From: Elusimicrobiota bacterium
GTDB lineage: Bacteria > Elusimicrobiota > Elusimicrobia > 2-02-FULL-39-32
DNA: 64,000 nucleotides
Assembly: GCA_021730935.1 (NCBI GenBank)
Contig: JAKFYJ010000002.1
Span: 1-64,000, forward strand
Reading direction: 5' to 3'
In this document: piece after piece, positions 4,680 through 50,944 of the stretch
How positions within the stretch are numbered: the stretch's first letter is position 1
How the letters are laid out: every line of letters starts with the position of its first letter
Program-made: the position numbers and the translations under genes
Notes under the pieces: generated by a model
What the model was told of the DNA's origin: nothing
What the model saw: only the letters and a program-made list of their open reading frames with translations
The model's database searches: none

Positions 4680-5171
4680 ATGACGAAAGACACAAAGATC
4701 CTGGAACTTCTTTCCACCGTCGACGTTTTTGCCGGATTGGAAGACCACGAGCTGGAACACCTGCAGAGAACGTCCCAAATGGTCTCACTGCCTCCGGACA
4801 CGATCATCTTCCGGCAGGGCGACAAGGGGGACAAGATGTATTTGGTGGTTCAGGGGATCATCGAGATTTGGAAATCCGAGGGCCATGATTTGAAGGGAAG
4901 CCGGCTTGCGCGCCTGAAACAGGGCGAAATTTTCGGAGAGATGGCGCTCTTCGACAAGGACCCCAGGTCGGCCACGGCGATCACCTCGATCGCGAAAGAA
5001 ACGAAGATATGGATTTGGGATGAGAAAGACCTGATCAAGGTGATTCACGATCATCCGCAGCTGGGCACCAAGCTTTTGATGAATTTTATGAAGAAAGTCA
5101 GCAACCGTCTCCGCATCGCCAACGACGCCATTCATACGCTCCTTCGCTCCAACCAATACATCGGCCTTTAA
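4680..5171 (+). CDS. Cyclic nucleotide-binding domain protein (Crp-like sensor without HTH)
   Basis: A single cupin-fold cyclic-nucleotide-binding domain of 163 residues. Seen: LPPDTIIFRQGDKGDKMYLV, then GEIFGEMALFDKDPRSATA, the phosphate-binding cassette region of Crp-type domains, followed by a C-terminal helix (about 115-155). There is no helix-turn-helix, so it is not a DNA-binding Crp; it could act as a small cNMP or other ligand sensor for a partner. The cassette has P-R-S-A-T-A, close to the R-S-A form seen in cyclic-nucleotide binders. Monocistronic, with its own promoter, and followed immediately by the palindrome-flanked element. Partner and ligand unknown. Confidence 0.85.
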   Translation: MTKDTKILELLSTVDVFAGLEDHELEHLQRTSQMVSLPPDTIIFRQGDKGDKMYLVVQGIIEIWKSEGHDLKGSRLARLKQGEIFGEMALFDKDPRSATAITSIAKETKIWIWDEKDLIKVIHDHPQLGTKLLMNFMKKVSNRLRIANDAIHTLLRSNQYIGL

Positions 5172-5327
5172 TAAAATTAAAACCAAGCAGTAAATTCTGT
5201 TTTTTAGAAAACGCGCTCGCCCGAGTGCGGGGCTCGCTTGGATCTCGAGAAAGCGTATGCCAGTCTTTCGCTCGATACAGTTTTCCAAAAAACAGAATTT
5301 ACTGCTTGGTTTTAATTTTATTAAAGG
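5165..5327. repeat. Palindrome-flanked element, copy 1
   Basis: Two 48-base arms (5165-5212 and 5280-5327) are reverse complements with one mismatch. They enclose a 67-base GC-rich core (5213-5279). Each arm contains CCTTTAA, so the arms carry the CTT-TAA end of the cNMP gene on the left and the mirror CTT-TAA end of the ferredoxin gene on the right. The core can form a small stem with CTTTCGC on one side (near 5260-5266). A second copy with the same core in opposite orientation but other arm sequence lies at 50799-50944. It sits exactly between two convergent genes, so a role in ending or stabilising both transcripts is possible. Not a family I recognise. Confidence 0.9.
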
Positions 5328-5560
5328 GTTTCGGCAGGGCGGGGCACCATCGAAATGGCTTCCCAGGGACAGATTCGCATGCAGAGCGTGCATCCCGTGC
5401 ACTTTTCGTTCTGGACATCAACAACGACCATGGCGAAGGGCGTTGTTGAAGGAGCGTCAGACTTTACAATACAGTCTTTATGAGGCATGACGGACAGACA
5501 GGCTTCGCATCCGGAGCAAAGGTCAGAGCTGATCCGGGCAATGGTTTTTGACTTAGCCAC
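5321..5560 (-). CDS. Small 2[4Fe-4S] ferredoxin
   Basis: Low-potential electron carrier. The 79 residues hold two cysteine sets in the classic interleaved order: C15, C18, C21 with C64 for one cluster and C54, C57, C60 with C30 for the other. The second motif is CTGCTLCMRICP. The 32 residues between C21 and C54 are longer than in clostridial ferredoxins. Its ATG overlaps the 3' end of the upstream peroxiredoxin gene by 8 bases, so the two are probably co-transcribed. Its last two codons and stop lie inside the palindromic arm of the neighbouring element. Redox partner unknown. Confidence 0.88.
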   Translation of the reverse strand: MAKSKTIARISSDLCSGCEACLSVMPHKDCIVKSDAPSTTPFAMVVVDVQNEKCTGCTLCMRICPWEAISMVPRPAETL

Positions 5561-50496: not shown

Positions 50497-50805
50497 ATGA
50501 TCGCGCAATTTACGCTCACGCCGCTCGGAACAAAGTCGGATTCCCTCTCAAAAGTCCTCGCCAAGGCCATGAAGCATGTGGCGGAAAGCGGACTAGAATA
50601 TAAAGTGGGGCCCATGGGAACGGTGGTTCAGGGGGATTGGCACGAAGTGATGACCCTCATCAACCATTGCCGCAAAACGATCCTGCGGGAAGTCCCCAGA
50701 GTCGCCATCCAGATTGCCGTCGATGACCGTCCGGGCGCAAAAAACCCCATCAAGAGCAAAGTTCAGTCTTTAGAGAAAAAGATGAGACTGTCCCTCAACA
50801 AATAA
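50497..50805 (+). CDS. MTH1187/YkoF-family thiamine-binding-like protein
   Basis: 102-residue ferredoxin-like protein of the DUF77 family: IAQFTLTPLGTKSDSLSKVL at the N-terminus, SGLEYKVGPMGTVVQGDW in the middle (about 31-48) and a C-terminal R.AIQIAVDDRPG strand. Members form tetramers and some bind thiamine or its pyrimidine. With thiC 1.8 kb upstream, a link to thiamine is plausible. AGAGAGG serves as ribosome site. Its stop codon is inside the left arm of the palindrome-flanked element copy 2. Confidence 0.88.
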   Translation: MIAQFTLTPLGTKSDSLSKVLAKAMKHVAESGLEYKVGPMGTVVQGDWHEVMTLINHCRKTILREVPRVAIQIAVDDRPGAKNPIKSKVQSLEKKMRLSLNK

Positions 50806-50944
50806 AAATTAAACACTCAATTTCATTTTTTTGAAAACTGTATCGAGCGAAAGACTGGCATACGCTTTCGCGAGATCCAAGCGAGCCCCGCACTCGGGCG
50901 AGCGTGTTTTCAATAAAATGAAATTGAGTGTTAATTTTTATTTG
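50799..50944. repeat. Palindrome-flanked element, copy 2
   Basis: Left arm 50799-50838 and right arm 50906-50944 are reverse complements apart from one inserted A and one mismatch. The 67-base core (50839-50905) is the reverse complement of the core of copy 1 with two differences. Outer arm ends (AATAAAAATTAAA) and inner ends (run of T, then GAAAAC) resemble copy 1, but the middle of the arms, CACTCAATTTCA, differs completely from copy 1. Core stem GCGAAAG / CTTTCGC with 11-base loop is perfect here. It lies between convergent genes, taking in the stop codon of the left one. Confidence 0.9.

Follow-up and report, generated by a model that had tools for sequence, protein, structure and literature searches.

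A hairpin between a cyclic-nucleotide-binding-domain (cNMP) gene and a 4Fe-4S ferredoxin gene in the window (the whole 64,000-nucleotide stretch of Elusimicrobiota DNA that was analyzed) is, with a probability of about 0.6, one of a set of dispersed, non-coding and presumably non-autonomous elements of ~135-165 bp that act through one folded strand. The fixed center and the freely changing paired arms point to an undescribed mobile hairpin working as a folded single strand. The core would be recognized through both sequence and shape, and the enclosing stem (P1, 34-48 bp) would need only to pair, its sequence drifting by compensatory changes. Template switching during replication probably assists this drift by copying one arm onto the other and flipping the element in place, and it may lengthen the stem by a few bases into flanking DNA. 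A protein of the host or of the element itself is predicted to bind the core, and an enzyme acting in trans may mobilize the element.

Table 1. Positions of the elements, their parts and the neighboring genes (window coordinates, except for family B)
Feature	Position	Strand	Description
Copy 1, left arm	5165..5212		3' side of stem P1 in the probable working strand; holds the cNMP gene stop codon
Copy 1, core (67 nt)	5213..5279	-	minus is the probable working strand, from G.U bias
Copy 1, right arm	5280..5327		5' side of P1 in the working strand; holds the ferredoxin gene stop codon
Hairpin P2, copy 1 core	5239..5279	-	UGUAUC GA GCGAAAG...CUUUC.C GA GAUCCA
Hairpin P3, copy 1 core	5214..5237	-	GC GA GCCC...GGGC GA GCG, with GA/GA internal loop
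cNMP gene, flanking	4680..5171	+	ends ..GGC CTT TAA inside the left arm
4Fe-4S ferredoxin gene, flanking	5321..5560	-	ends ..ACC CTT TAA inside the right arm
Copy 2, arm	50800..50838		pairs with 50906-50943, one bulge; beyond the inner part unlike copy 1
Copy 2, core	50839..50904	+	inverted relative to copy 1, working strand plus; 65/66 identical
Copy 2, arm	50905..50944		partner of 50800..50838
Family B copies, own genome	L129:6657-6819, L124:16828-16974, L125:9069-9201, L082:2009-2147		unrelated core, same three-way-junction layout

The sequence-only reading had described two 48-nt arms pairing at 47 positions around a core that recurs in inverted form at a distance, with both neighboring genes ending in CTT-TAA inside the arms; each of these observations was confirmed, the arms of copy 1 being 98% complementary (Table 1). 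The arms of copy 2 (50805-50838 and 50906-50939) are 91% paired with each other and differ from those of copy 1. The two hairpins score 45 and 25, respectively, and the best hairpin in 40 dinucleotide-Markov sequences of 64 kb scores 15; folding z-scores lie between -11 and -14, for RNA as well as for single-stranded DNA (ssDNA).

The source genome is an Elusimicrobiota metagenome-assembled genome (MAG) of 2.7 Mb in 96 contigs, and the assemblies compared with it are also MAGs. It contains ten copies of the core (family A); an eleventh match is a chance similarity of 14 nt. All ten copies have their own paired stem of 34-48 bp, and the arm sequence is specific to the copy, as the earlier description of a conserved middle with variable ends had anticipated. 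For arms of different copies, identity stands at 0.63 in the innermost 16 nt and ~0.4 at 16-32 nt and falls to background further out; at arm positions 17-34, an arm pairs with its own partner at a mean of 15.8 of 18 positions, versus 6.9 for arms taken from different copies. Neither of the two outcomes named as refuting that description appeared: the ten copies do not have identical arms throughout (as an ordinary MITE would), and no core in this genome lacks arms. Inner-arm sequence is shared within sub-groups of family A (L003 and L006, L004 and L010, L005 and L009). A BLAST search of the arms against 1.26 Mb of the genome revealed no donor of arm sequence elsewhere; whole arms are common only to B129 and B125. 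Among 341 genomes of the phylum, the family A model identified four more carriers (G005, G014, G233, and G323), and in the two G005 copies the arms agree over no more than the inner ~17 nt.

A census of hairpins in 1.26 Mb (46% of the genome) found 11 scoring at least 22, of which ten enclose a spacer: five belong to family A and three to a second family (B), and two have other spacers. Two perfect-armed hairpins of 29-33 bp with long GC-rich spacers of 211 and 140 nt (L103:4188-4464 and L118:19799-19996) are possibly further core families. A spacerless 28-bp palindrome (ATAAAAATTGCCGG...; L103:16306-16361) is 93% paired.

Family B is represented in the source genome by four copies, the fourth with a hairpin score of 21. 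A covariance model built from them has matches with E<=0.01 in at least 32 of 196 genomes of the class, with no more than 21 candidates scored in each and with likely false positives among the weak matches. The exact family B pattern occurs in 84 stretches of the named collection, nearly all titled Elusimicrobia and the rest unnamed bacteria. As in family A, the arms change freely between copies: over the inner 24 arm positions, 20.1 pair with their own partner versus 9.9 across copies. We tentatively propose, at somewhat under even odds, a new superfamily of mobile structured elements of the Elusimicrobiota. Its three-way-junction cores would be of two or more unrelated types (A and B among them), its active form a folded single strand (RNA or ssDNA) and its long stem free in sequence, and one genomic hairpin site could be occupied by different cores in related species. 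Conserved sequence, often terminal, is what identifies the small bacterial repeats known so far, and a consensus search can overlook an element with free ends; should the fold be what is inherited as a unit, uncultured phyla may conceal many more elements of this type. Mobile hairpins with compensatory stem changes are also represented by the double-hairpin elements of fungal mitochondria, which differ from those described here in being organellar and smaller and in sharing no core with them.

On the strand opposite to that on which the core was first written, the element folds into a three-way junction of the long stem P1 with the hairpins P2 and P3, both of which contain a GA/GA internal loop. 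RNAalifold analysis of family A gave 53 pairs, 30 of them changed on both sides, and 29 of the 35 pairs of P1 show double (compensatory) changes. Given this structure, 94.7% of the cells in family A are paired, versus 75.3% in shuffled alignments; the covariation score is 0.538 versus 0.150 (0 of 500 shuffles were as high), and sliding the partner by a single column lowers pairing to 44-53%. Corresponding values for family B, from an alignment fitted to its model, are 92.8% of cells paired (66 matches) and a covariation score of 0.510 versus 0.137 when shuffled (64 distinct rows). Compensation extends into the core: copy L010 has a G-C pair of P2 replaced by A-U, and four family A copies have jointly lost one C and one G from opposite sides of P3. 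Conservation of the core among resident copies could also result from gene conversion between them rather than from selection.

Stem mismatches are strongly biased toward one strand. With stems delimited by a score that weights all mismatches equally, and with the core held in one fixed orientation, family A has 13 G.U and 0 A.C mismatches; family B has 54 and 14 (53 stems with a score of at least 12), giving 67:14 for the two families together (joint two-sided binomial p ~2e-9). A G.U mismatch read on either strand becomes A.C on its complement, so a function of the double-stranded cruciform cannot produce this bias; the constraint acts on a single strand, always the same one with respect to the core, and the working form is this strand when folded, as RNA or ssDNA. 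Of the two explanations originally offered for the arms, that of selection for pairing is supported by these biased mismatches together with the compensatory pairs. The orientation of the element relative to flanking genes is mixed (++ 11, +- 10, -- 9, and -+ 8, by simple ORF calling), and because no direction is preferred, read-through transcription from the host is not what exposes the working strand. The same bias would be expected from tolerance of G.T in ssDNA, and RNA is favored over ssDNA as the folded strand by a small margin.

The one-strand bias, the conservation of structure over sequence, the indifference to gene orientation, and the insertion at many sites are also what would be seen if the hairpins were folded ssDNA sites of recombination or transposition, resembling integron attC sites or HUH-transposase ends, with a recombinase guided by structure more than by sequence to cut or join the folded strand. 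The form in which attC sites are recognized is a folded single strand, and their sequence is little conserved (PMC2727003; PMC6393395); the elements work like them in that a strand-specific hairpin keeps its structure more than its sequence. However, no integrase or transposase is linked to the copies, there are no cassettes, and the ends are not conserved; the attC R-box pair RYYYAAC ... GTTRRRY was not found, and the inner arm ends of family A, which by inspection read GAARAC...GTYTTC beside the core, do not fit it. On present evidence, the elements are not members of the attC group. Genes for Y1/HUH transposases (PF01797) were not found in the incomplete assemblies G001 and G174, which carry family B, and where such genes are present they are flanked by other repeats. 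Recombination sites of this type are an unlikely identity for the hairpins, if the least unlikely of those weighed against a dispersed element with a folded working strand.

Comparison with related genomes indicates that the elements are insertions, since orthologous sites in congeners are empty. Copy 1 is lacking in two congeners (~71% nucleotide identity): in G001, the cNMP stop codon is followed by 17 bp and then the 3' end of the ferredoxin gene, and in G002 the interval is ~6-12 bp. The C-terminus of the ferredoxin after ..MVPRP is not conserved at this site. Where the source genome has ~150 bp of arm-core-arm at copy L008, the two genes in G002 are separated by 0 bp and overlap by ATGA; several family B empty sites likewise have almost no intergenic DNA. 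Nothing of the arm sequence is present in the DNA at empty sites, which argues that the arms arrive with the insertion and are mostly not copied from local DNA. The L008 and L009 sites have orthologs in G001 that contain runs of N (L071 and L074), perhaps hairpins that resisted assembly.

A further comparison covers one genus (g42), in which three sites (S151, S157, and S146) were compared over 11-13 species, the closest members being ~90% identical. At S151, three species contain a family B element and ten congeners are empty; S157 is empty in four congeners. The filled species at S151 form no clean clade on the flank tree, so repeated gains or losses are required. The core at this site is identical in G180 and G072, and the entire element is inverted in place in G166 (L201 versus L199 and L200). 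Stem pairs 2, 13, 16, 18, 19, and 24 have changed with pairing kept, three of the changes being clustered at 16-19 and mirrored in both arms, and A.G mismatches at 7, 8, and 28 are retained in all three filled species. At S157 and S146 (L213-L235), species differ in having a B core, a GC-rich "D" core (CACACCGTG...), a coreless near-perfect palindrome (G184), or nothing. The "D" cores at these two sites were not recognized by model R1; by eye only, they resemble family A in reverse (CACACCGTG and CGCAAAACGC). Filled, empty, inverted, and coreless orthologous sites within one genus constitute a rare natural record of change in a long stem, from one-step G.U changes through doubly compensated pairs to mirrored changes of several bases, and allow the roles of selection and template switching to be told apart.

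Template switching has been documented to homogenize arms, invert spacers, and generate multibase compensatory changes (PMC8604942; PMC8794818), and the in-place inversion in G166 and the mirrored changes at 16-19 match these outcomes. The hairpins could therefore be palindromes made by template switching, in which the core inserts and the local DNA of one side is then copied in inverted form onto the other, making, lengthening, or homogenizing the arms. Something close to this had been suggested from the sequence of copy 1, as a core that enters and then builds its hairpin from neighboring DNA; most of that suggestion is not supported, since the empty orthologous sites, with almost no intergenic DNA, lack any arm of 25-45 nt, and since the inner ~16 nt of each arm move together with the core. 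The part that stands concerns no more than ~7 nt at the outer edge of copy 1: at this end of the cNMP gene G001 reads GGGCTTTAA, so the outermost CTTTAA is ancestral local sequence, and a short local extension of the stem by template switching is plausible there. The remainder of the arm is not explained in this way. Homogenization would also have erased mismatches, but the A.G mismatches at S151 persist, as does the mismatched motif CUGAGAC/GUCGAAG in the stems of A3 and A6, and template switching predicts no excess of G.U over A.C. RNA hairpins maintained by this process (PMC8794818) share perfect stems, multibase compensatory changes, and loop inversion with the elements, but they represent a mutational process and not a family, and dispersal and G.U bias are not explained by it alone. 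With the retained mismatches and the G.U bias left unaccounted for, template switching is insufficient by itself, and as a full account of the arms we consider it improbable, slightly more so than ssDNA recombination sites. The mixture of states at the g42 sites fits a stem selected for structure, with template switching as a contributing mutation process.

REP dimers (BIMEs or REPINs) similarly place two inverted palindromic arms around a spacer, and some dimers are known to have a spacer that is structured or conserved (PMC3733652); the core could be such a spacer in a REPIN moved by a transposase of the RAYT or TIRYT type. Arms in genus g42 include self-complementary GGGG-NNNN-CCCC stretches, the ends of the elements there are similar to CGGAGGGG / CCCGACT, and the same sites can also carry hairpins that lack a core. 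However, REP families (GTAG, CGTC) are defined by short (20-40 bp), conserved arms with an unpaired GTAG/CGTC tag, whereas the arms here are up to 48 bp long and copy-specific. No tag was seen by inspection in the flanks of the ten family A copies, and GTAG-like flanks accompany only some g42 copies of family B. In the genomes examined, repeats of type A or B were not found beside any tyrosine transposase gene; the TIRYT-type genes present have their own GGGGACA/GGGGTCA repeats, of the GGGGWSAS type of PMC3733652. A REPIN origin is accordingly quite improbable, and RAYT or TIRYT enzymes were rejected as mobilizers on account of their inconsistent presence and different flanking repeats. Inverted GGGGACA/GGGGTCA repeats of the TIRYT type flank the Y1 transposase genes L320, L323, L327, L332, and L337, and in G002 the ortholog of the L009 site (L075) carries a similar GGGGACA hairpin.

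Host selection for bidirectional terminators or mRNA 3'-end stabilizers is very improbable: copy 1 does lie between convergent genes with its stem abutting both stop codons, and several family A stems begin at a stop codon, but copies are also found between divergent genes and inside operons, in mixed orientation rather than in sense placement after genes, a bidirectional function predicts no strand bias, the stem is AT-rich where an intrinsic terminator has a GC-rich stem and a U-run, and orthologous absence implies that the host gene pair does not need the element.

Dispersed elements with one folded working strand share with MITEs and other non-autonomous transposons a multicopy, non-coding, inserted character and empty orthologous sites. 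The terminal inverted repeats of MITEs are conserved between copies, however, and here the outer arms are at background identity. MITE-like palindromic repeats such as ERIC/IRU, YPAL, Correia/NEMIS, and RUP (reviewed in PMC2229807) are comparable in being ~100-170 bp long, intergenic, dispersed, folded, non-autonomous, and polymorphic for insertion; they are recognized by conserved sequence that typically includes the terminal repeats. The present elements, by contrast, conserve only their middle, their terminal arms bear no relation to those of other copies, and their wobble pairs are biased to one strand. No clear target-site duplication was seen: most matches are tetramers of arm sequence that are self-complementary, with no excess beyond these, although a repeat of 5-6 bp may flank copy L008. 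Rfam searches with the window, with the element, and with 12 loci of family B gave nothing credible above the gathering score, and neither core matched phages, plasmids, or viral contigs. Among 80 scored of the listed viral matches to a loose P3 pattern, there was one weak match to the model (E 0.04).

Part of the copy 1 core could encode LEKAYASLSLDTVF (5244-5282), which is near the DNA-binding helix of Fur; this is probably chance. A 27-nt, 93% match of the core to a Fur-family gene in G093 was likewise put down to chance: E is ~0.02 over 147 genomes, and the Fur gene of the core's own genome does not match. In a genome of a different genus (G004), a long multi-branched hairpin (AGAACCGACATTGG ... 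CCAATGTCGGTTCT; L044:1-200) adjoins the same ferredoxin gene.
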